A DNA stretch of 64,000 nt, from positions 56,096 to 120,095 of the forward strand of contig DXIQ01000010.1 in NCBI GenBank assembly GCA_019112785.1, given 5' to 3'. This document shows, in pieces, positions 6,718-20,704 of the stretch. The notes beneath the pieces were generated by a model, which was given only the letters and a program-made list of their open reading frames with translations, was not told where the DNA came from and did no database searches. This stretch comes from Candidatus Blautia stercorigallinarum (GTDB lineage: Bacteria; Bacillota; Clostridia; Lachnospirales; Lachnospiraceae). How positions within the stretch are numbered: position 1 is the first letter of the stretch; each line of letters starts with the position of its first letter. Made by a program: the position numbers and the translations under genes.

Positions 6718-9700
6718 CTATCTCTTTTTACTTCTCTTTTTCTTCATTATCACGGCTATTACAACTCCGGAAAAGGTCAGTATGCAGATAAGTTCACCAA
6801 TAGGCGCTTCATCTCCTGTTTTTACGGAAGCGGTGCCGAAGGTTTTTGCTGTCTCCTGCTCTTTTTCAGGACTGCCCGGAGTTTCTTTTTTCTCTGTTTT
6901 TGGTTCCTCAGGGACTTTGATCTTTACTGTCTGATTTTCGTCCTCCAGGTCTGTATGGGAAGCCACCTCAATTTCCTGTACATAGAGGCGTTCAAAGACA
7001 ACGATCTCCTTTCCGGCTGCTATGGAAGCATCAAAAGTAAATTCCAGTTCTTCCCTTCCGGAAGATTTTTCCGGTATAAAAGTTTTCTCTGCGGTGATCT
7101 GCTTTTCATTGATCAGCAGCGGCTCTCCGGTACTCTTATCCATGAGCATGCCTTTCAGAGTATATCTCTGGCCCGGGATCAGACCTTCATAAGTAACAGT
7201 ATCCAGGATCGTTGTATCGGCTTTAGCCCGGGCTTCCTGAGTTTCTGATTCCTTATCCCTGGCCTGGGTCTGGATCTTATGCTCCGGATATTTTACAGTC
7301 TGGCCTTTGTCATTCAGATCCCGGTGGGCATTTACCTCTTTATCTTTTACAAACAGACTTTCAAAAACCACAATTTCCGAATTTTTCAAAACTGTACTGT
7401 CAAAGAAAAATTCCAGGACCACAGTTCCATCTGCTGTTTCCGGGATAAAAGTCTTTTCTGCTGTAATCTCCTTTTTGTTGATCAAAAGCGGCGTTCCGGT
7501 AGATTTATTCATCAGAATTCCTTTCAAGGTATATTCCTGGCCCGGGATCAGATTCTGATAAGCCACTGTATCTGCGATTACAGACTGTTCCTTCCGGATT
7601 CCCTCCTGAAGACCTGTATTTTTGTCTTTCGCCTGAGTGCCCAGGTCCGAATAATGGACGCTCTGGCCTTCATCCTGGATATCTCCATGAGAGCCGACTT
7701 CTACACCGTTATACAGGAGGTCCTCAAAGACTACTGCCGTCTGTCCGGCAAGCAGGGTTGAATCCAGTTCGTAGACCAGCTCTACGCTGCCTTCTTCATT
7801 CTCTGGAGTAAAGGTTTTCTCTGCAGTTATATCCTTACCCTCACTATTTTTCACCGGTTCACCAGTCTCTTTATTCATGAGAGTGCCTTTTATAGTGTAC
7901 TCTTTTCCCGGGAGCAGCCCTTTGTAGCTCACCACATCGATTACCGTTGCTTTCTCACTGACAGTTCCAACATGTTTTCCGGTAACGCCGTCGGAAGCAT
8001 TGGTACGGAGCCAGGGGAAGGTCACCGTCTGTCCCTCGTCATTGATATCTTTATGCTCCCCGATCAGTTTATCGCTGGTATAAAGCTCTTCATAGACAAC
8101 TACCTGCTTTCCTGCCAGGGCTGAAGCATCAAAGGTATACTCCAGGTCAACAGATCCATCTGCCATCTTGGGAGTAAACTCTTTCTCCGCAGTTACTTTC
8201 TTTTCGTCGATCAGCAGCTCTTTTCCCGTGGCCTTATCCATTAATACGCCTTTCAGTGTGTATTTCCGGCCTGGGATCAGATTTTTGTAAGATACGGTAT
8301 CCAAGATCTTTACCTTGCCTGCATTGGCGATATGATCCTTGGTGCTGCTGCCTTTAGCTGTGGTTCCCATAGCCGGGAAGTGGATACTCTGATCTTCGTC
8401 TTCAATGTCCGTATGGCTTCCAACTTCTTTATCCTTGTAGTACACATGCTCAAAGGCTACTACCGTCCTGCCGGCCAGAGCCCTTCCGTCAAAGGTAAAG
8501 GTAAGCTCCACAGAACCTTCTGCTTTTTCTGCAGTCAAGGTCTTCTCTGCAATTACCGTCTTTCCATCTGCCTGCAATTCCTTACCGGTAGACTTATCCA
8601 TCAGGGTTCCCTTTACCGTGTATTCCTTACCCGGGATCAGTCCCTTATAGGTAACAGTATCTACAATGGTCACTTTCTCATCCGGGTTACTGCTATGGTT
8701 TCCTGTTTCCTTGTCCAGGGCTGTAGTGCCGATCCTGGGGATATAGATGGTCTGCCCTTCATCTGTGATGTCTTTATGCTCTGCAACGCTGGCTTCTGTC
8801 TGGAACAGCTCCTCAAATACCACCAGAGTATGGCCTGCCAGGGAAGAAGCGTCAAATGCAAAAGTCACATCTGCCGTTCCGGAGGCTTCTTCTGGTTTAA
8901 AGGTCGCCTCAGCCGTTACTTCCTGTCCCCCGACTTTTACAGACTCCCCGGTTTCTTTATCCATCAGGATACCTTTCAGAATGTACTCTGTCCCAGGAGT
9001 CAGGTTCCTGTAGGAAACCGTGTCTACTAAGGTGATCTTATCGGCTTTTCCGAACTTTGTCCCGGATACGGCTTCTTTTGCTGTGGTGCCGATCCCCGGA
9101 AAGTAAATCGTCTGGGCCTGGTCATTGATGTCTGTATGTACGGCATACACGGTATCGTTTCGTTCCAGGCTTTCAAAGACTACCAGGGTCTTTCCGGCCA
9201 GATTGCTGCCGTCAAAGGCAAAGGTCACGTTTACAGTGCCATCTGAGGTTTCCGGCTTAAAGCTGGTTTCTGCAGTGATCTCTTTGCCTTTTGCATCTTT
9301 TACAGGCTCCCCGGTTTCTTTATCCATCAGGGTTCCCATCAGTTTATATTTCTTACCTGGCTGAAGATTGCTGTAAGAGACTGTGTCTACCAGCGTGATC
9401 TCCCGATCCGCCTTCGATACATTCGTGTTTGTCTCCTGATCCATGGCCTTTGTCCCGATTTCCGGGAAATGAATGGTCTGTTCTTCGTCTGTAATGTCCG
9501 TATGTTCTGCGATCAGATTTTCCTTCTGATAAAGTTCCTCAAACACAACAATGTCCGCCCCGGCCAGTTTTGTGCTATCAAAAGTAAACGTCATCTCAGC
9601 AGTTCCTTTTACTTTCTTTGCAGTAAAAGTTTTTTCCGCAGTGACTGGATTTTCCTCACCATCTGTCACCGGTTCTCCGGTTGCCTTGTTCATGAGGATT

Positions 9701-12700
9701 CCCTTTAAGGTATATTCCTCTCCCTTGTTCAGGTTGGTATATTCAACCGTGTCGGTAATCGTTGTATTCTCCCCGGCTGCTGCATAATGATCTTCAGTGT
9801 CACTGTCTATGGCAGTCGTTGCGATCTCTGCCAGGTCGCTGTCATCTGTCAGAGTACCTAAAGGAATGGTATAGTTATCTCTGTATACAGTAATCTCAAT
9901 GGAAAGCAGCTTGTATCCTTCGTTTGCTTCACATCTCTGCTCTTCGATCCGGTATGTGTCATAGGGCAGCGCCCCTTTCTCATCATTGACCGGCACTTCT
10001 TTTTCCGTGGTTCCGGAGAACCATACTCCGTCTTCCGAAGTCTCTCCCCGGTTAGTGTTCTGACTGTGCAGATTCCATGCAGAAGAAGTGTCCACCTGAC
10101 CGTTTCTGTCAGATACTACAATATGGGATTCTCCCGTAGTTTTGCTGGTAATCTTAAAGGGCACATTTTCCAGCCGCTCCAGGGTGCTGTCTGCTACTTT
10201 CACAAAGTTCAGATCTCCACGTTTTACCTGGTTTTTAATAGCTCCCTCATTGTTATCCAGGGATACGATTTTTCCATCCTCCCGGATCTGGAAGTTCCTG
10301 GCTTGGGCTCCATCCGGCAGATAGCCGTCCGGTTCCTGCACTTCCGCGACTTCATAGGTGCCATATGGCAGCCAGTCTTTTTCAGAGGTCCACAGACCGT
10401 CTTCCCCTGTCTCTACCGTTGCGATCACCTCTCCAGGCTGATACAACTGGCCGTCCACCAGAACTGCCTTTGCAGAACAGTTGGTAACCGTGAATTTTGC
10501 TCCGTCTAAAGCTGCGCCGCCTTGTGTCTTGCGCTCATTGGTTTCCAGACTCCACTTTGCAATGGTTACTCCCCCGCGGATCACTTCATTCTTGACAGCT
10601 GTATCAGAAGTGTTCATCTGGACGATCTTCCCGTCTTCCCGGATCTCAAAGTTCCGGGTGATGGTTCCGCCGGATGTATAGCCGGTTGGAGGAAGGGTTT
10701 CTTTTAGCTGATAGTCTCCATATGGAAGGAAATCTGCAGATGTGCCGGCCTTTCCATCTTTATCTGTGGTGAGGGTGGCAACCGCTTCGTCTTTTTTATA
10801 TTCCTTCTCCCCTACAAGGACGGTATATGGATTATTGGAAATGATCTGGATCCGGGTCCCTTCCAGGCCGGCGTCGCCCTGAGATACACGCTGCTCCAGT
10901 TCGCTGTCCCATTTTTCCACGGCTACACCCCCGCGGATCACTTCATTCTTGACAGCTGTGTCAGAAGTATTCATCCGGACGATCTTCCCGTCCTCCCGTA
11001 TCTCAAAGTTCCGGGTGATAGTTCCGCCGGATGTATAGCCGGTTGGAGGAACCGTCTCTTTCAGCTGATAATTTCCGTATGGCAGGAGATCCGCCACTGT
11101 GCTGGCTTTTCCGTCCTTATCTGTTGTCAGGGTAATGATAACTTCGCCCTGCTTATATTCTTTGTCATCTACAAGGACTGCATTGGTGTTCTGGGAGATG
11201 ATCTGGATCTTTGTTCCTTCCAGGGCTGCTGTGCCCTGGGGTTCTCTCTTATCCTTCTCGCTGTCCCATTTTTCTACAGCTACGCCTCCGCGGATCACTT
11301 CATTCTTAATAGCCGTACCTGTGGTATTCATCCGGATGATCTTCCCATCCTCCCGTATCTGGAAATTCCGGGTAATGGTTCCCCCAGATGTATAGCCGAC
11401 AGGGGGAATGCTTTCCTTTAACTGATAATCTCCATATGGCAGAAGATCCGCTGATGTACTGGCCTTCCCCTCTTTATCTGTAGTAAGAGTTGCGACCACT
11501 TCGCCTTTTTTATATTCCTTCTCCCCTACAAGGACAGTCTGCTCGTTCCGGGAAATAATCTGGATCTTGGCTCCCTCCAGGGTTGCTTCGCCCTGAGCCG
11601 CTCTCTTATTCAGCTCACTGTCCCACTTTTCTACAGCTACGCCTCCGCGGATCACTTCATTCTTGATGACAGTATCTGAAGTATTCATCTGGATAATTTT
11701 CCTATTTTCCCGGATCTCAAAGTTACGGGTGATTATTCCTGCGGAGGTATATCCCCCAGGCTGTTTCACTTCTTTAAGCTGATAACTTCCGTATGGAAGG
11801 AAATCTGCGGATGTGCCGGCCTTTCCTTCCTTATCTGTTGTAAGGGTAGTGATAACTTCCCCTTTCTTATAAACTTTTCCATCTGCCAGGATTTCCTGAT
11901 CGTTCTGGGAGATGATCTGGATCTGTGTGCCTTCCAGAGTTGCTGTGCCCTGAGCGTTTTTCTTATCCAGCTCACTGTCCCATTTTTCTACGGTCACTCC
12001 GCCACGGATGATGTCTTCCTTACTGCTCACAGATTTATAAAACACCTCTGCAGAAGCATCCTCTGCAGTCAGTTCCACGGTGTAGGTCTGTGGATCTACC
12101 TGGTATCCTGGAGAGGCTGTCTTCTCTTTTACTGTATAAGTGCCAAGGGGCAGACGTTCACTTTCCCCTTTACCGGCATTATCTGTGGTCATAGTGCTTA
12201 CTACTTCATTACTGCTGTTTCGGATTTCATATACAGCTCCGGCAAGGCTTGCCTGCCCTTGAGCTGTATTTCTTTCTGAATCAGACTTCTGCAGCCGGAT
12301 AATACCCTTCTGTGATGTTTCCGGTACTGTCGGCTGATCATAAGTAGCAACCGTTTCTGCTGTTCCATCAGAAGTGATCTGGCGGATAAATATTTCCTGG
12401 TTCAGCAAGAATCCTGCAGGTGCTTTGGTTTCCTGGATCGTTACGGTCCCCAGAGGTAAAGCCGGATTGCCATTGGTCATATAATAAAGATCATCGCCGG
12501 AAATTTTTGCCTTTTCATCAAAGGGAAGATCCCCCTTTTCATTGGTCTTCATGATCCAGGTCCGCTCCGGATCTATTCCCTGTAAAGCCGGGTCCGTGTC
12601 ATAAATTCCTTTGTAATACTTGACAGTAAATTCCGCATTTGCCAGGGAAGCACTGGCCTGAGTCTTATTCTTATCCGCCTCAACCTTTCTAAGCAAAACT

Positions 12701-15366
12701 GCAACCGGGTTACTTTGTGGGGTATCCTGGCAGCTGTAAGCAACCGTCTGGCCACCTGTAACAGTGACTGTGCCTGTTGCCGTATCCAGGGCATATCCGG
12801 CAGGGGCTTTCAGTTCCCGGATATCATAATTTCCTGCCGGTATATCCTCTACTTTTCCATAGCCATTTACGTCCGTCACTAATGTCGCCACCTGTTCTTC
12901 AGTACCTTGCTTATACACACCGTACTCTGCGCCTGCCAGACTGTAAGCGCTGTTGCCACCTGTCATTTCCGGTTTTGCGGAGGACTTTGTAATGCTTATT
13001 CCGCCTTTTGCTTCAGCAGTATCCGTTTTCACCACAGTAATAGCCATACAGGTGGTTTTCGGAAGTATATTGGAGATCATGTTGCCTGGCGCATAACTGT
13101 CTGGAATACCATGGTCCGTACTATGCCAGAAACCATTAATATCACCATTATCTTTATGGAACCATCCCGGCGATGCATTATATGGATCAGAATTATCAAA
13201 CGCAGAGCCGATATAGATTCCCACATGATGATAGTTGGAAATACCGTAACTCAGACCATTATTCATATTTCCGGCGGCGGCGTCCCACATCCAGATAATA
13301 TCCCCGGGCTCGATCCAATCATCCTCATACAAAATCGTATTGATGATAGCAGTGGTATCAGATCCCGTGTAGGTACGGTACCTGATATTATTATTTCTGA
13401 TAAAGGACACCCATCCGCTGAGAGCTGGGATTTCTGTCCCGCCTGCTTTCGTCAGGGCATGCCATACGAAACCGGTACAGTTCATGCCTGCCTGTCCCTC
13501 TGTGTCGCCTGCGCCATAGGCGCCCTGGCAGTCGCCGTTGGGATTACGGTAATCTGCAGACATTCCCGAATTTTCGATCCAGCCCGGGTTATAGGGCGTA
13601 CTCAGATAGTAATCCGTTGACACATGGCCGCCAAGCCAATTCATGATAGACTCACGGTTTACCCCGGCGACATCTGCCAAAGAATTAGAGCCATATTCAC
13701 TAACCGTTGTATCTCCGGCCGCCACAGTAAAGGTATCCTCCGGCAGGTCTTCTTTTAATTGTTCTGCCGTGTATGTTTTTACCAAATTCGGCTCAACTGT
13801 GGGGATCAATCCGGCTTCATACATCGCTGCTTCTTCTGCAGAAACCCCAACATACTCCTGCCCGTCTTCAGCCGGTTCTTCAGTTACAGGCTCACTGGTA
13901 TAATCTGCTGCAAATACAAGCCCCTGATTCAGGATATCTTTAACAGCTTCTAAACCATTTGCAGAAACAAAACCGGTAAACAAAGCCGCGGCTTCTGATG
14001 TAGAATCTGCAACAACATTATAATCAACAGTTTCTCCGAAATTAGACATATCCAGACGGGTGCCATCTTCTTTCGCCGCGCCTATAATATATGCCTCATC
14101 TACGGAACCGGGCATATAACCCGCCGCATCTGCGCTATCATTGCCTGCAGCCCCGACAACAAGAATACCTGCTGCTGCCGCTTTCTGAATTTCCTGTTTC
14201 AGTACAGAGGTAGCTAATGTTGCTTTTGCATATACCGAAAGATTGATAATATCCACTTTCTGCTTAATGGCATATTCCATCCCGGCGACCAGGGACGAAA
14301 TCGTACCGATTCCTTTATCATCCATTGCACGAATGGAAAGAATCTTACCCTCTGCATCCTGGCTGATAATCGCCTCCAGCATATCGTTCCCATGCCCGTT
14401 TCCTTCCAGCTTGTCATCAATAACAGATACGCGTGCCATTACATGCTCACCCTCAGATACTCCCGTATCGATCAATGCGATCATGCCATGTGCATCCAGT
14501 ACTTCATCAGATGTCTCTACATCATTTAGTACTTCGATAGGATTCATTTCAGAATCCATAGAAATACTGGCAATATCCTTCGGGCCATTATCTTCCGAAG
14601 CAGTTTCAACAACTGCATCCGGCTCTACTGCAGTCATCTTGTCCTTATAATACGCATAAGCGTTCACTGTCTGCTGTATAGACGAAAACTGGAGCAGGTA
14701 TACATTCTCATACCGCCCGATAATGTCGCTGTCGTCAACAATGACAGATGCATCATCTGCCAGTACGACCAGACGCATTGAGGCAAAATCAGATGCATTC
14801 AGATCAGCTATATCCGGTACAGCTGTTACATCCTCCGGTTCCTCTGTTAAGGTTTTCTCCGGATCTTCCGCCGGAGTTTCTTCGGGAATTTCCTGTACTT
14901 CAAGGTCTCCTGACTCTTCTGGGGATATCTCAGAAAACCCAATCTCTATACTGCTTATTTCATCCACATTGATCCGGGCTGTATAGTGCCCATTTTCTAA
15001 TGCCGGAGTAAGGATCTCCTCTTTGACTTCACCTGTGTCCGTCATGGTCTTATAGAAAGCTGCCTGGTATCCGTATTCCGGTATTGCCGTAATCTCAAAG
15101 AAACTTCCTGCAGGGCAGTCTAAAGAAAGAGGTTCCTCTGGCGCTGCTTTGCTGATATTTCCCTCCTCGTCTCTTACTTCTATGCTTCCTTTACCTTCTG
15201 TAACTGACACATTAAACCCTTTTGTTTCTTCTGTTTTCTGCTCCCCGGAAATTTCCATGACCTTCGCTGATTCCTCTGCGGCAAAAACCGGGACAGGTTG
15301 GAGAAAAGAAGAAAAACTCAAGACTGCCGCTAATACATATGCCACTGTTCTTTTAAACCTTTTCAT
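6718..15366 (-). CDS. Giant sortase-anchored surface protein: signal peptide, I9-like propeptide, S8-like domain, NlpC/P60-like domain, SpaA/Cna_B repeats, VaFE repeats, KTGD sorting signal
   Basis: 2882-aa ORF. IDTGV/GNGHGND/STSEAAA (S8-like); MNCTGFVWHAL...GDIIWMW...HHVGIYIG...FWHS (NlpC/P60-like); GGVAVEKWDSE repeats; YTLKGILMDKATGE...VVFEELY repeats; C-term SVKTGDEAPIG + TM + KKKRSKKR. Confidence 0.9.
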   Translation of the reverse strand: MKRFKRTVAYVLAAVLSFSSFLQPVPVFAAEESAKVMEISGEQKTEETKGFNVSVTEGKGSIEVRDEEGNISKAAPEEPLSLDCPAGSFFEITAIPEYGYQAAFYKTMTDTGEVKEEILTPALENGHYTARINVDEISSIEIGFSEISPEESGDLEVQEIPEETPAEDPEKTLTEEPEDVTAVPDIADLNASDFASMRLVVLADDASVIVDDSDIIGRYENVYLLQFSSIQQTVNAYAYYKDKMTAVEPDAVVETASEDNGPKDIASISMDSEMNPIEVLNDVETSDEVLDAHGMIALIDTGVSEGEHVMARVSVIDDKLEGNGHGNDMLEAIISQDAEGKILSIRAMDDKGIGTISSLVAGMEYAIKQKVDIINLSVYAKATLATSVLKQEIQKAAAAGILVVGAAGNDSADAAGYMPGSVDEAYIIGAAKEDGTRLDMSNFGETVDYNVVADSTSEAAALFTGFVSANGLEAVKDILNQGLVFAADYTSEPVTEEPAEDGQEYVGVSAEEAAMYEAGLIPTVEPNLVKTYTAEQLKEDLPEDTFTVAAGDTTVSEYGSNSLADVAGVNRESIMNWLGGHVSTDYYLSTPYNPGWIENSGMSADYRNPNGDCQGAYGAGDTEGQAGMNCTGFVWHALTKAGGTEIPALSGWVSFIRNNNIRYRTYTGSDTTAIINTILYEDDWIEPGDIIWMWDAAAGNMNNGLSYGISNYHHVGIYIGSAFDNSDPYNASPGWFHKDNGDINGFWHSTDHGIPDSYAPGNMISNILPKTTCMAITVVKTDTAEAKGGISITKSSAKPEMTGGNSAYSLAGAEYGVYKQGTEEQVATLVTDVNGYGKVEDIPAGNYDIRELKAPAGYALDTATGTVTVTGGQTVAYSCQDTPQSNPVAVLLRKVEADKNKTQASASLANAEFTVKYYKGIYDTDPALQGIDPERTWIMKTNEKGDLPFDEKAKISGDDLYYMTNGNPALPLGTVTIQETKAPAGFLLNQEIFIRQITSDGTAETVATYDQPTVPETSQKGIIRLQKSDSERNTAQGQASLAGAVYEIRNSSNEVVSTMTTDNAGKGESERLPLGTYTVKEKTASPGYQVDPQTYTVELTAEDASAEVFYKSVSSKEDIIRGGVTVEKWDSELDKKNAQGTATLEGTQIQIISQNDQEILADGKVYKKGEVITTLTTDKEGKAGTSADFLPYGSYQLKEVKQPGGYTSAGIITRNFEIRENRKIIQMNTSDTVIKNEVIRGGVAVEKWDSELNKRAAQGEATLEGAKIQIISRNEQTVLVGEKEYKKGEVVATLTTDKEGKASTSADLLPYGDYQLKESIPPVGYTSGGTITRNFQIREDGKIIRMNTTGTAIKNEVIRGGVAVEKWDSEKDKREPQGTAALEGTKIQIISQNTNAVLVDDKEYKQGEVIITLTTDKDGKASTVADLLPYGNYQLKETVPPTGYTSGGTITRNFEIREDGKIVRMNTSDTAVKNEVIRGGVAVEKWDSELEQRVSQGDAGLEGTRIQIISNNPYTVLVGEKEYKKDEAVATLTTDKDGKAGTSADFLPYGDYQLKETLPPTGYTSGGTITRNFEIREDGKIVQMNTSDTAVKNEVIRGGVTIAKWSLETNERKTQGGAALDGAKFTVTNCSAKAVLVDGQLYQPGEVIATVETGEDGLWTSEKDWLPYGTYEVAEVQEPDGYLPDGAQARNFQIREDGKIVSLDNNEGAIKNQVKRGDLNFVKVADSTLERLENVPFKITSKTTGESHIVVSDRNGQVDTSSAWNLHSQNTNRGETSEDGVWFSGTTEKEVPVNDEKGALPYDTYRIEEQRCEANEGYKLLSIEITVYRDNYTIPLGTLTDDSDLAEIATTAIDSDTEDHYAAAGENTTITDTVEYTNLNKGEEYTLKGILMNKATGEPVTDGEENPVTAEKTFTAKKVKGTAEMTFTFDSTKLAGADIVVFEELYQKENLIAEHTDITDEEQTIHFPEIGTKAMDQETNTNVSKADREITLVDTVSYSNLQPGKKYKLMGTLMDKETGEPVKDAKGKEITAETSFKPETSDGTVNVTFAFDGSNLAGKTLVVFESLERNDTVYAVHTDINDQAQTIYFPGIGTTAKEAVSGTKFGKADKITLVDTVSYRNLTPGTEYILKGILMDKETGESVKVGGQEVTAEATFKPEEASGTADVTFAFDASSLAGHTLVVFEELFQTEASVAEHKDITDEGQTIYIPRIGTTALDKETGNHSSNPDEKVTIVDTVTYKGLIPGKEYTVKGTLMDKSTGKELQADGKTVIAEKTLTAEKAEGSVELTFTFDGRALAGRTVVAFEHVYYKDKEVGSHTDIEDEDQSIHFPAMGTTAKGSSTKDHIANAGKVKILDTVSYKNLIPGRKYTLKGVLMDKATGKELLIDEKKVTAEKEFTPKMADGSVDLEYTFDASALAGKQVVVYEELYTSDKLIGEHKDINDEGQTVTFPWLRTNASDGVTGKHVGTVSEKATVIDVVSYKGLLPGKEYTIKGTLMNKETGEPVKNSEGKDITAEKTFTPENEEGSVELVYELDSTLLAGQTAVVFEDLLYNGVEVGSHGDIQDEGQSVHYSDLGTQAKDKNTGLQEGIRKEQSVIADTVAYQNLIPGQEYTLKGILMNKSTGTPLLINKKEITAEKTFIPETADGTVVLEFFFDSTVLKNSEIVVFESLFVKDKEVNAHRDLNDKGQTVKYPEHKIQTQARDKESETQEARAKADTTILDTVTYEGLIPGQRYTLKGMLMDKSTGEPLLINEKQITAEKTFIPEKSSGREELEFTFDASIAAGKEIVVFERLYVQEIEVASHTDLEDENQTVKIKVPEEPKTEKKETPGSPEKEQETAKTFGTASVKTGDEAPIGELICILTFSGVVIAVIMKKKRSKKR
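6920..9832 (-). repeat. Eight tandem VaFE-type surface repeats (~345-360 bp each)
   Basis: Recurring I(A/G)TxAxD...TDTVxYxNLxPGxxYTLKGxLMDKxTGE...xVVFExLyxxxxxxxxHxDixDxxQT. Confidence 0.85.
10220..12010 (-). repeat. Five tandem ~119-aa SpaA/Cna_B-type repeats (~357 bp each)
   Basis: Recurring RGGV(A/T)VEKWDSE...AxLEGxxIQIIS...TLTTDKxGKAxTxADxLPYGxYQLKE...GYTSGGTITRNFxIREDGKI. Confidence 0.9.
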
Positions 15367-16268
15367 ATCTGGCCTCCTTTCTTATTTTCCTGTTTTCAGG
15401 TACAAAAAGGGCACTCTACAGAGCTCCTGTGGTTTTATTTTCCCTTCCCGGGATCATCTGCTCAATGGAACCGCCTCCTTTCCCACAGAAAACAAACCCC
15501 TTTAAAAATCCATAAATGATAGATACATGCCCCAGGCAGTACGCTCCTGAAACTTTGTACTATAGCAAAATCCCCGTAAATAGATTTGCAATTTTAAATA
15601 AATGTTATTTGGAATATATGACGCGAACGCATCAAAAGAAATAAGCCGACAGGCCGCAAGAAATATCATATAATGATCCGGATCCATAAATTCTAAACCT
15701 TTATGAGCTTGCTCATAAACAGGTGAAAAGCCCTGGGATCCGCTCAATATGCACATAAAAGCAGGCTATATATTCTGCCATCAGATATTTATCTGCAAAT
15801 GGGATTTCTTAAAGATTTAAATTCTGAAATACATAAAAGTCAAAGACCCTCGCAGCAGTCGTCAAATGGACATGCCAGCATGTCCGCTTGGCTCGTTGCT
15901 CGTGGGAATAAAACATATGCTGTAGAGAAATGTAAAGAATCTACTGTCCTTACAAATGAGATCTGTTTTCATCAGGATTTCTTTTCTTGTTAGTATATAC
16001 CGGATTTCCAAAAGTATCAACCGGAAATGCCGGATTTTTCTTAAAAATTTTGCGACAGATTTTGACAGCCTCTGTCCTGCTCCTGGTTAAAGTAGACGAC
16101 CATTTTTATAGTTGATACCACCGGGACGGGTAGCCTACGCCTACCTTCCGGCTGTCTATAATCAAGGATCTAGAAGTTGTCAAATGGTAAAAGCCACCCA
16201 ATCCTGTCAACACTGCAGCAATACAACTCAAAATAGAAAAAAGCCTGTAAATACAGACTTTTAAGAGT

Positions 16269-16628: not shown

Positions 16629-16714
16629 TGCTACGCCTCTTGTATTCTGTTTTGCTATAAGAATATGCGGACAGAAAAAAATTGCAACAGCTCTCAGCTT
16701 GCATAAACACCGGC

Positions 16715-16790
16715 TTTAAGCATAAAAATAACCGGAGAGAACTTCTCTCCGGCCGCTTGAAAGTAAGTGGAGCATACGGGACTTGAACCC
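16715..16790. repeat. Left att copy: direct repeat with 20579-20654, containing a tRNA-Ala 3' fragment
   Basis: 76 bp aligned with one mismatch (16742 c vs 20606 g), ending in ...gtggagcatacgggacttgaaccc. Confidence 0.9.
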
Positions 16791-17021
16791 TGGCAACGAC
16801 TTCTAAACCGCATAGAAAGGGGGCTTTGCACATCATCTAAGCAAGTGTAACCAAAAGTGTAACCACTGCATACAATATTTTTCCTTGTCCGCCCGATCAA
16901 TAACCAGCGTTCCGCAGGATACCCAGAGCGACGGTTCCTAACAGGGCGTTGGGTCGGCTGGGTAAGCGTCCGGCTTCACACTCTTTTTGTTTTGCGAAAA
17001 TAAAAAACATCTCAATATTTT

Positions 17022-17237
17022 TTATACTTTTAAGTATCGCTTATCCGTTCTTTCCAGCAGATAATCAACAGAAACATTAAAATAATCCGCTACTTTAATC
17101 AACATTTCTGTAGGTATATCCCTTTTTCCTGTTTCATAATGAGAAAGTGTCCGCTGACTTATATTTAATTTTTCTGCCAGTTCTTTTTGCGACATATCAG
17201 AATCCTCTCTTAGACCTCTTAGCCGTTCTAATTTCAA
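17022..17237 (-). CDS. XRE-family HTH transcriptional regulator
   Basis: MSQKELAEKLNISQRTLSHYETGKRDIPTEMLIKVADYFNVSVDYLL. Confidence 0.92.
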   Translation of the reverse strand: MKLERLRGLREDSDMSQKELAEKLNISQRTLSHYETGKRDIPTEMLIKVADYFNVSVDYLLERTDKRYLKV

Positions 17238-17271
17238 ATATAAATCACCCCTTTTACAGGGATTATATTAA

Positions 17272-17312
17272 AGAACAAAATGGGCTATTGATTTTTAGAA
17301 CAAAATGGGCTA
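17272..17312. promoter_or_regulatory. Twin 16-bp operator-like repeats (AGAACAAAATGGGCTA) around a promoter (TTGATT-17 bp-TAAAAT)
   Basis: Identical copies at 17272-17287 and 17297-17312; -35 at 17288-17293, -10 at 17311-17316. Confidence 0.75.
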
Positions 17313-17359
17313 AAATCACTAATATATGAAAATTTATACTTTTAGGAGGAAGAAAAAAG

Positions 17360-18430
17360 ATGAAACAAAAGATGATACTTGCACTGTTAGCGGCTATGAC
17401 CTTAACAGTTGGAAGTGTAGGAACTGTTTTTGCGGCTACGAATAATGGTGGTGCTGAAGTCCAGACATCAGATCCCGAACAGCATACTCATACATGGGGA
17501 GCCCCTGTATATGTAGTTGACCAGGAAGCCGTTTACGGACCGTCTGAGTGGGTTCCTACTAAGCCTGCCGAGTACGAGCAGATCAAGGTCGTAGACAAAG
17601 AAGCTTGGACCGAAGAGATTACAGCGACTCATACGGTATGCTTCACCTGCGGTTTAGATTTTGATGCAGCGGGTATGTCTAATGCAGACGTTCTTGCACA
17701 TGCTAAAAATCATGTTCTTAACGGAGAGTCTGGAGATTACGGCAGCAAGGAAGTAGTCGTTGACACCATCGACCACCCAGAAGAATACCATTACGAGAAC
17801 GGCGCACTGATCAGCCCAGAACAGGGCTACTGGACAGAAGCTCCTCTGATCACTCCGGAGCAGGGTCACTGGGAACATACTTGTGAGGGGTGTGGTGAGA
17901 TTCAGAACAGCGAAACAGGAGAAGTTATCAAACCAGGTACAGTCACTACACCTGAAAATCCTGGTGCAGAGAAGCCAGGTACAGAGACACCTGCAAACCC
18001 AGACACAAATACACCTACGAATCCAGATAAAGAAGATCCAGACACAGGGACACCTGTAAATCCGGGAACCGATACCGAAAACCCGTCAGGGGATAATACC
18101 CAGAATCCTACAGAGGATACGGAAAAGCCTGTTGTTGGAAATGAAGGCAGTCAGGATCAGACAGATCAGAATAAGACAGAGACTCCCCAGAACACAGCAG
18201 AAGAAACTACAGCTACAGAAAATAAAAATACAGATACCCAGGACACTGTAAAAGGTGAAAAGGTTACTCAAGTCAACACTCAGACAGAAACTACTGAAAG
18301 CAATGAAAGCAACGAAAAGAAATCTCCAAAAACAGGCGATCCGGCAAACTTCATTTATCTGGCTACACTGGCCGGAAGTGCTTTGACTGGCGGTACAGCC
18401 TTCGGGCTTAGAAAGAAATTACAAAAATAA
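17360..18430 (+). CDS. Sortase-anchored surface protein with CxxC/His motifs and a Pro/Thr/Asn-rich stalk
   Basis: Signal peptide; HTVCFTCGLDFDAAGMSNADVLAHAKNH, HTCEGCGE; repeats (NPDTNTPTNPD); C-term SPKTGDPANF + TM + RKKLQK; GGAGGAAG RBS. Confidence 0.9.
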   Translation: MKQKMILALLAAMTLTVGSVGTVFAATNNGGAEVQTSDPEQHTHTWGAPVYVVDQEAVYGPSEWVPTKPAEYEQIKVVDKEAWTEEITATHTVCFTCGLDFDAAGMSNADVLAHAKNHVLNGESGDYGSKEVVVDTIDHPEEYHYENGALISPEQGYWTEAPLITPEQGHWEHTCEGCGEIQNSETGEVIKPGTVTTPENPGAEKPGTETPANPDTNTPTNPDKEDPDTGTPVNPGTDTENPSGDNTQNPTEDTEKPVVGNEGSQDQTDQNKTETPQNTAEETTATENKNTDTQDTVKGEKVTQVNTQTETTESNESNEKKSPKTGDPANFIYLATLAGSALTGGTAFGLRKKLQK

Positions 18431-18593
18431 ATCTGATATATACGTAAGAGAGGTTCAGAGAAATCTGGATCTCTTTTTGTATGCACAAAAGTATTTTTCT
18501 TTTTATCTACTTCCATAAAATCTGGATTTTCTCCCGTCGGACAGGGCGTATGCCGCAAGGCAGAAGCCCGGACGGCGGTGAGAAATCCAGATT

Positions 18594-18620
18594 CTCTGGA
18601 GGTAAGTATTACCTCCAGAG
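18594..18620. other. Perfect hairpin, 12-bp stem, 3-nt loop
   Basis: CTCTGGAGGTAA GTA TTACCTCCAGAG. Confidence 0.9.
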
Positions 18621-18734
18621 AACAAGCATTCAAAATCTATTGTATTTACTGGCTTTCCGGCTGTGCGTACTTTTGCACAAATCGAACACAAAACATCAAA
18701 GAACCAAATCGCAAATCAGAAGTATAACGATAAT

Positions 18735-18854
18735 TTTAGAAACAGGAAAAACAGATTTATATCTATAAAACGCAAGAATAGAAATACAAAACCTACATTT
18801 AGATCTGAAAAATTTAGATTTAGATCTACAAAAAAGAAATTTAGATCTGAAAAC
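18735..18854. repeat. Iteron-like array, 21-bp period (consensus about TTTAGATCTACAAAA)
   Basis: Motif starts at 18735, 18756, 18777, 18798, 18819, 18840; the last three contain TTTAGATCT exactly, the first three are degenerate. Confidence 0.75.
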
Positions 18855-19201
18855 ACTGCTCATACATTAAAACCAATCAAAAATCTTTAAAAACACTATG
18901 TAAACTTAGAAACCCATCTTCCGTTTCTTAAAAAACATCTAGTACCTCCGAAAGGAGGAAGTGATCCTGTTAAGTGCTACAGCTTTTCCCGATTCAATCT
19001 TTACAGCGCATAGATAAAATGTCGAAATGAAAAGTCGGTTATTTCCGTTATTTTTCTGCCGTAATTTTATTTGTCACTCGATTTATCCTGCATTTTTAGC
19101 GGAAAATCACTAAAAAGTATATCCCGGAGAAAAAAGTCTGAAATTTCAGATACTCAAGATCCGACTTTTTAAGGCGGCAGTACGGCAGGATCACACACTA
19201 C

Positions 19202-20479
19202 ATGAACAAGAGTCTTTTATCTTTGACAAACAAAAGTGCAGAAGAACTGTTGTCGTTTCTTACTGAAAATGATATCATTGACCTGGATGATGTGCAAAAT
19301 CAGATGACAAAAAAGTTTAAGGAGACGATACTCAAATATCATAACCACAAAATCTGGAAAGGTACAGATAACCGTTATCGTACTCATGTCAATGACAGCA
19401 CAAAGAAATCAGGACGGAGGTTGATAGTCAAAACAAAGGAGGAAGATCTTCTATCCTATCTTGCAGAATTTTATGGACTGAAAGATACTAATGAAAGTGA
19501 TAGCAGATCAGTTCCCACATTAGAAAAAATATATCCTCAGTGGCTGGAATACAAAAGGTTGCATACTACTGCGGAAACTTATATTCTGCGGATTGATTGT
19601 GACTGGAAAAAGTATTATGCTCAAACAGAAATCGTAAAGAAGCCATTGACTTCTCTGAATAAGTTGAAATTGGACGAGTGGGCTCACAAACTGATCAAAG
19701 ACCACAGCATGACCAAAACTCAATATTACAATGTTACTGTTATTATGCGTCAGACCTTACAATATGCCGTTGATATGGGAATTTTGAAAGAAAATCCATT
19801 TTCCGCTGTTCATATAGACGGAAAGAGAATGTTCAGAAAAGTCAAGAAAAAAGCTGATGATACACAGGTTTTCCTCAGCAATGAAATTCCTGCTATACAG
19901 AGGCTGGCCTGGAACGACTTTTTAAGCAATGATAAATTATTACATCGCCTTGCTCCGCTGGCAATCCTGTTCCAGTTTCAGACAGGTGTGCGGATCGGTG
20001 AATTATGTGCCTGTTGTGATGAAGATGTTGAAAGTGAAAATTATATTCATATACAGCGAATGTATCGCTATGGGGCCCGTAAGCCGGAGATAGTAGAACA
20101 CACGAAAACCTCTTATGGTGACCGTAAAATTTTTTTAACAGATCTGGCAAAAAAATACATACAGATAGCGAAAGAGTATAAGGCAGAACATAAGATAAAC
20201 AGCAAGTATATTTTTTCTGTGAATGACCGCCCGCTTTCTAATTGGTCAGTAGCCGCCCTTTATAGAAAGTACTGCCAAGAAATCGGAATCATAAATAAGA
20301 CCTCACATAAAACACGTAAAACCTATATATCCGCTTTGATTGACGGGCAGGTGAATATCAATACTGTCCGTGAAATGGTGGGACATGCTGATGAGCGTAC
20401 TACTTTGGGAAATTATTGTTTTGACCGCAGTACAGAGAACGAAAAGTTAAAATTGATACAGAAAGCCTTGATATCCTGA
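19202..20479 (+). CDS. Tyrosine recombinase/integrase
   Basis: TGVRIGELCACCDED, SHKTRKTYISALI...VREMVGHADERTTLGNYCF (R..HxxR..H..Y pattern); adjacent to tRNA att site. Confidence 0.95.
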   Translation: MNKSLLSLTNKSAEELLSFLTENDIIDLDDVQNQMTKKFKETILKYHNHKIWKGTDNRYRTHVNDSTKKSGRRLIVKTKEEDLLSYLAEFYGLKDTNESDSRSVPTLEKIYPQWLEYKRLHTTAETYILRIDCDWKKYYAQTEIVKKPLTSLNKLKLDEWAHKLIKDHSMTKTQYYNVTVIMRQTLQYAVDMGILKENPFSAVHIDGKRMFRKVKKKADDTQVFLSNEIPAIQRLAWNDFLSNDKLLHRLAPLAILFQFQTGVRIGELCACCDEDVESENYIHIQRMYRYGARKPEIVEHTKTSYGDRKIFLTDLAKKYIQIAKEYKAEHKINSKYIFSVNDRPLSNWSVAALYRKYCQEIGIINKTSHKTRKTYISALIDGQVNINTVREMVGHADERTTLGNYCFDRSTENEKLKLIQKALIS

Positions 20480-20578
20480 AGTGTAACCAGACTGTAACCA
20501 GAAATAAAGCACATCTTATACACTTGCTTTTGCATAGAAAAAAATTGCCACAGCTCAAAACACCGGATAAACACCGGA

Positions 20579-20654
20579 TTTAAGCATAAAAATAACCGGA
20601 GAGAAGTTCTCTCCGGCCGCTTGAAAGTAAGTGGAGCATACGGGACTTGAACCC
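20579..20654. repeat. Right att copy within and beside tRNA-Ala
   Basis: Pairs with 16715-16790. Confidence 0.9.
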
Positions 20655-20704
20655 GTGACCTCCACACTGCCAGTGTGGCGCGCTCCCAACTGCGCTAATG
20701 CCCC
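20632..20704 (-). tRNA. tRNA-Ala (anticodon GGC), integration target
   Basis: GGGGCAT..GCGC..GCGC..CCACA-CTGGCAG-TGTGG..ACGGGTTCAAGTCCCGT..ATGCTCCA. Confidence 0.95.

Follow-up and report, generated by a model that had tools for sequence, protein, structure and literature searches.

A stalked surface protein of Candidatus Blautia stercorigallinarum combines a subtilase and an NlpC/P60 domain in a predicted fibrillar enzyme

A gene of Candidatus Blautia stercorigallinarum raises the question of what two hydrolase-like domains might do together ahead of a long, repetitive surface stalk. The gene was analyzed within a 64,000-nucleotide stretch of DNA, referred to here as the window (positions 56096-120095 of contig 39 in a draft assembly of 3.33 Mb and 111 contigs). 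It is one unbroken open reading frame of 2882 codons that starts with ATG and lies on the minus strand, a detail that the original prediction did not give. From the N to the C terminus, the protein comprises a signal peptide (reading MKRFKRTVAYVLAAVLSFSSFLQPVPVFA, followed by AEE), a variable domain with an acidic linker, an I9 propeptide, an S8 domain, a linker, an NlpC/P60 domain, SpaA domains, TQ domains, and an SVKTG tail (Table 1). The original prediction of a single reading frame with a signal peptide, I9, S8, and NlpC/P60 modules, SpaA/Cna_B repeats, eight VaFE repeats, and a sorting-type tail was confirmed by Pfam, profiles, structural modeling, and the sequence itself.

Table 1. Parts of the window gene and its protein, with positions in the window.
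Feature	Position	Strand	Basis or remark
Whole gene, 2882 aa	6718..15366	(-)	ATG at 15366, stop at 6718
Ribosome-binding site AAAGGAGG	15373-15380		A few bases 5' of the ATG
Signal peptide, residues 1-30	15277..15366	(-)	Inspection of sequence
Small N-terminal domain, residues ~48-150	14917..15225	(-)	Bacterial-repeat-like by eye; acidic linker after it
I9-like propeptide, residues ~195-256	14599..14784	(-)	Alignment to pro-subtilisin E 3WHI, model, Foldseek
Propeptide end, V253-E-T-A256 then S257			Predicted autoprocessing site, between A256 and S257
Compact S8 subtilase domain, residues ~270-490	13897..14559	(-)	Pfam, profiles, AlphaFold, Foldseek
S8 D300	14467-14469	(-)	
S8 H325	14392-14394	(-)	
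S8 N409	14140-14142	(-)	
S8 S457	13996-13998	(-)	
NlpC/P60 domain, 4EYZ subfamily, residues ~560-785	13012..13689	(-)	Family profile
NlpC/P60 C630	13477-13479	(-)	
NlpC/P60 H714	13225-13227	(-)	
NlpC/P60 H748	13123-13125	(-)	
About nine SpaA/Cna_B-type domains (prealbumin-like, isopeptide-type)	9829..12984	(-)	Pfam
Eight TQ/VaFE ester-bond domains	6922..9828	(-)	Pfam, NCBIfam
Sorting-type signal SVKTGDEAP, hydrophobic stretch, KKKRSKKR	6721..6828	(-)	Sequence

The Pfam Peptidase_S8 model matches residues 337-454 (E=7e-12; 45.6 bits against a cut-off of 21.8), and a profile built from 22 S8 sequences finds subtilisin BPN' at E=1e-40, with an alignment that extends through the propeptide of pro-subtilisin E (3WHI). 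D300, H325, the oxyanion asparagine N409, and S457 are present in canonical order and invariant in all 22 relatives. An AlphaFold model of the I9 and S8 region, computed from 13 aligned sequences (pLDDT 86.5, pTM 0.89), recovered the subtilisin fold, and a Foldseek search with this model returned, at E values of 1e-12 to 1e-15, the leader protease CylA, PCSK9, which cleaves itself, and unautoprocessed pro-subtilisins, with the propeptide included in the match. The window domain shares its fold, D-H-S order, oxyanion asparagine, and propeptide with the I9 subtilases (subtilisin BPN'/E, PCSK9, CylA). It differs from them in its compactness, in the replacement of Gly127, in its position N-terminal to an adhesin-type stalk, and in its Ser motif, which reads [ST]-T-S-E-A-[AS]-A rather than G-T-S-M-A-x-P and, across the family, is mostly [ST]TS[E/Q/K/V/I]A[AS]A.

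Two of these differences bear on the predicted specificity. The domain is compact in that N409 and S457 lie 48 residues apart, compared to 66 in subtilisin, and its C terminus is shorter as well. At the position of subtilisin Gly127, which belongs to the S1 pocket, all 15 core members have Y, S, A, or C. In nearly all of the 15, the last strand of the propeptide ends with V/I/F-x-x followed by A, or in a few cases by S or C, one row of this comparison being apparently misaligned by one residue. The replaced glycine and the small residue at the end of the propeptide point to a narrowed S1 pocket and to self-processing after a small P1 residue, which suggests that the core S8 family is an autoprocessing protease specific for such residues (A256 in the window protein). 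This conserved P1 is evidence of one likely self-cleavage and not of a lasting action in cis by the mature protease. As a remark only, the family carries at subtilisin position 225 an alanine in place of the usual proline of the Ser motif, the P225A change of subtiligase; because 46 of the 107 S8 domains that were collected have alanine there, no claim of a natural ligase is made.

The second hydrolase-like domain is matched weakly by Pfam NLPC_P60 (E=0.17, below the cut-off). A profile of ten family sequences matches PDB 4EYZ at E=9.5e-21, with further NlpC/P60 enzymes, among them 7cfl (1e-5), ranking below it, while members of the family match Pfam NLPC_P60 at up to 1.4e-8. C630, H714, and H748, which correspond in the profile alignment to Cys109, His215, and Gln230 of 4EYZ, are invariant in all ten relatives; by sequence, the domain proposed at this position is real and complete in its catalytic residues. 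Its papain-like fold is predicted from the profile match to solved NlpC/P60 structures; the single-sequence AlphaFold model (pLDDT 30) was not used. The closest relative of known structure, Ruminococcus flavefaciens RflaF_05439 NlpC/P60_2 (4EYZ), resembles the window domain in subfamily, in a Cys-His pair with a polar third residue, and in surface display, but it is a tandem NlpC/P60 protein on an X-dockerin, has Gln230 rather than histidine as its third residue, and lacks both an S8 domain and a crosslinked stalk. Its authors reported no detectable protease activity and a modified cysteine (PMC3573020). Elsewhere, the subfamily is combined with choline-binding repeats (L041), ChW repeats (L055, L147), or a YkuD L,D-transpeptidase domain (L056), companions that indicate a cell-wall context, and NlpC/P60 heads also occur on SpaA/TQ stalks without S8 (L146, L149). 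Of 391 genomes sampled across the class, the NlpC profile matched the source genome alone, and no relatives were found in viral contigs.

The remainder of the protein is a stalk of isopeptide and ester domains of the TIE kind. Pfam recognizes nine SpaA stretches (E=5e-88) and eight TQ (VaFE) stretches (E=5e-247), the latter also found by NCBIfam VaFE_rpt (eight stretches, 1076 bits). The ester-forming threonine of D-T-V-x-Y is kept in seven of the eight TQ domains and the glutamine motif in all eight. The sixth TQ domain (region of residue 2473, window ~7930-7950) has DVV instead of DTV, as does the matching repeat of the orthologue. Pfam yields no match to a thioester domain (TED) in the protein. 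In the tail, the place of LPXTG is taken by the variant SVKTG, followed by a hydrophobic stretch and a basic end, and this type of tail is conserved in the orthologue and in a paralogue on a mobile element. The protein is probably attached to the wall by a sortase; Pfam finds no anchor domain in it, and no sortase gene lies near the window gene, two being located elsewhere in the source genome.

The head of the protein was found in one of the 19 other genomes of the genus (G405), at 87% identity and in the same chromosomal neighborhood. By eye, this orthologue has five TQ domains compared to eight in the window protein, and it lacks the small N-terminal domain. Between the two genes, dN/dS is 0.18 for S8, 0.14 for NlpC/P60, 0.15 for the first SpaA region, and 0.59 for the N-terminal linker. 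The low values of the two catalytic domains indicate that both enzymes are maintained by purifying selection, and a pseudoprotease was rejected on the basis of the invariant triad and the S8 value. The architecture is not a chance pattern, given the syntenic orthologue and a distant protein of matching order, L037 (4626-12707 +; 2694 aa), which comes from another genus of Lachnospiraceae and likewise runs S8-NlpC-SpaA-TQ.

The distribution of the S8 domain places this pairing in a wider family. When the core S8 profile was run on 397 sampled genomes of Lachnospiraceae, six scored above 290 bits, followed by a sharp gap to 169, and in a scan of public genomes more members turned up in Lachnospiraceae and in two Coriobacteriia (Coriobacteriaceae and Eggerthellaceae). 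Nearly all core relatives are large proteins with SpaA/Cna_B domains, often with TQ stalks; S8 is, by sequence comparison, a recurrent N-terminal module of TIE-type surface proteins in Lachnospiraceae and Coriobacteriia. The domain that follows it varies. It is TED_2 in L066 (39.6 bits, above the cut-off) and, with a score just below the cut-off, in L040, and S8 is also combined with a TED in members from Coriobacteriia (L067, L068). In the latter, the placement is odd, with S8 N-terminal and the TED ~1600-1700 residues downstream toward the C terminus. NlpC/P60 follows S8 in the window protein and in L037, whose NlpC domains are only ~26% identical, and still other regions follow it in further members. 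In the S8 tree, the window protein is sister to the thioester protein L066 with support of 100/100, whereas L037 falls elsewhere and is never joined to the window protein. Taken together with the differing heads, this tree indicates that heads were swapped beneath a protease cap that was itself conserved, and inheritance of S8 and NlpC as a dedicated unit was rejected, as the two NlpC-headed proteins never join.

These comparisons also refine what had been proposed for the protein. The combination of S8 and NlpC/P60 on a crosslink-type stalk, which the original prediction called unusual, is rare, with two independent lineages found. The notion of a two-hydrolase tip stands insofar as both domains are catalytically complete by sequence, but S8 is not specific to this protein and recurs on TIE-type proteins with other heads. 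Because S8 recurs with a variable neighbor, a general cap or maturation protease is more plausible than one half of a two-enzyme tip. The alternative notion of a self-processing adhesin is compatible with the findings.

The stalk type, TIE proteins, fibrillar enzymes, subtilases, and NlpC/P60 enzymes are all known. TIE proteins (BaTIE, TIE-pLS20) share with the window protein a Sec signal, an N-terminal head, a stalk of isopeptide and ester domains, and C-terminal anchoring, and some are borne by conjugative elements (PMC6194298, PMC8092201). The window protein differs from them in having NlpC/P60 in the place of the thioester domain and an I9-S8 protease ahead of it; the structural paper on TIE proteins makes no mention of peptidase heads. 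Fibrillar enzymes (PMC9210967) are similar in their repeat stalk and in an N-terminal region that is enzymatic rather than purely adhesive, but the text names neither a subtilase nor NlpC, and the head of the window protein unites catalytic domains from two different clans. Relative to the literature searched, the coverage of which was incomplete, the capping of TIE-type proteins by a subtilase appears to be new, as does the combination of this cap with NlpC/P60: no subtilase or NlpC head on a TIE or VaFE protein was found there, which is absence of evidence only.

Based on these data, a simple model would describe the window protein as a wall-anchored fibrillar enzyme, in which the head of a TIE-like fibre, cleaving peptidoglycan or peptides, sits under a protease cap that matures itself, and we assign this reading a probability of about 0.5. 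The protein would be exported by the Sec pathway and then probably attached to the wall, where its SpaA and TQ domains would lock through internal bonds into a long self-crosslinked stalk that holds the N-terminal head outward, away from the cell. After export, S8 would fold on its own I9 propeptide and cut itself after a small residue (predicted between A256 and S257). Its later action would chiefly be in cis or directed at other surface chains close by, and as a maturation cap it would trim or expose the head. NlpC/P60, occupying the place of the thioester adhesion domain in close relatives, would be the effector, cutting gamma-glutamyl or stem-peptide bonds of peptidoglycan in neighboring or recipient walls or, alternatively, binding covalently through C630. 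By its predicted domains, the protein would join adhesin-type fibres to peptidoglycan-acting enzymes.

A more specific version is doubtful. It holds that the compact small-P1 subtilase of TIE-type fibres cuts itself and maybe the head junction, unmasking interchangeable reactive heads after export, with the NlpC/P60 version directed at neighboring or recipient walls; this would be a class of surface-fibre maturation not recognized before. The cut at the head junction would possibly fall at a motif in the S8 tail (V/I-F/Y-x-A/T), ahead of an acidic linker; the same tail motif (V/I-F/Y-x-A/T/R) could also simply form the final strand of the domain, as in other cases. In thioester adhesins as in wall hydrolases, reactive groups must be kept from acting prematurely, and if the version is true, a protease cap over interchangeable heads would be a general way for gut bacteria to control such groups.

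A serious rival to the maturation cap, possible although on the unlikely side, is a tip protease that acts in trans, in which S8, in the manner of cell-envelope proteinases, breaks down proteins of the host, the diet, or competitors away from the cell, with NlpC/P60 alongside. S8 enzymes anchored to the wall are common on Gram-positive surfaces, and among the surface S8 proteins of Lachnospiraceae several of the more distantly related ones resemble ordinary large proteases. The complete triad and its purifying selection would suit such a role too. However, the compact domain with Gly127 replaced in all 15 core members predicts a narrow specificity, and the coupling of S8 to unrelated head types argues for a shared role in maturation.

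A mating-pair device, derived from or working with conjugative elements, in which the head grips or locally opens the recipient wall in the manner of TIE-pLS20, is improbable. It was brought into view by a second stalk gene in the source genome (contig 111; L161, L170), a connection to conjugation that the original prediction did not contain. This gene encodes nine TQ domains up to the contig edge, and its stalk is 85% identical in nucleotides to that of the window gene over 3.2 kb. It adjoins VirB6-like, PrgI-like, TraG P-loop (VirB4-type) ATPase, T4SS coupling protein, and relaxase-like genes, and the T4SS and relaxase-like genes identify its surroundings as an integrative and conjugative element (ICE), which ties the window protein to gene transfer in gut Lachnospiraceae. 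Efficient conjugation of pLS20 in liquid depends on the adhesin TIE-pLS20, whose thioester cysteine is required for conjugation (PMC8092201), and conjugative transposons (CTns) of Clostridioides difficile carry Cna_B LPXTG proteins (PMC3158075). One of these (CD0386; PMC3158075) resembles the ICE paralogue in that an LPXTG protein of the stalk type is carried by a conjugative transposon, but it has no identifiable head. I9-S8 stalk proteins of ~3000 aa that belong to this S8 family are encoded on two IMG/VR contigs of 394 and 290 kb (L209, 7185-16871; L210, 7392-16370), with ParA-like, tail-lysozyme-like, and borderline TraG-like matches among the neighbors; instead of phages, these contigs may represent large conjugative elements. 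In contrast, the window gene occupies a syntenic chromosomal site in two species, its vicinity being free of transfer genes, and the ICE paralogue covers the stalk only, its head lying beyond the contig end. The head was not found on plasmids, and phages yielded only distant S8 matches.

An assembly fusion or a gene that has lost its function, conceivable in a 111-contig draft with a second highly similar stalk gene, is largely refuted and very improbable, since this head and stalk recur, with fewer TQ domains, at the corresponding locus of an independent species, dN/dS lies well below 1, and the active-site residues are invariant.

Finally, the window contains a 3.86-kb integrative element (16703-20654) at tRNA-Ala(GGC) (20631-20704 -), which is absent from the syntenic site in G405. 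Its edges form an 88-bp direct repeat that is 98% identical, and it encodes a tyrosine-type integrase-like protein (19202-20479 +), an HTH regulator (17022-17237 -), and a small surface protein of the SPKTGD type (17360-18430 +).
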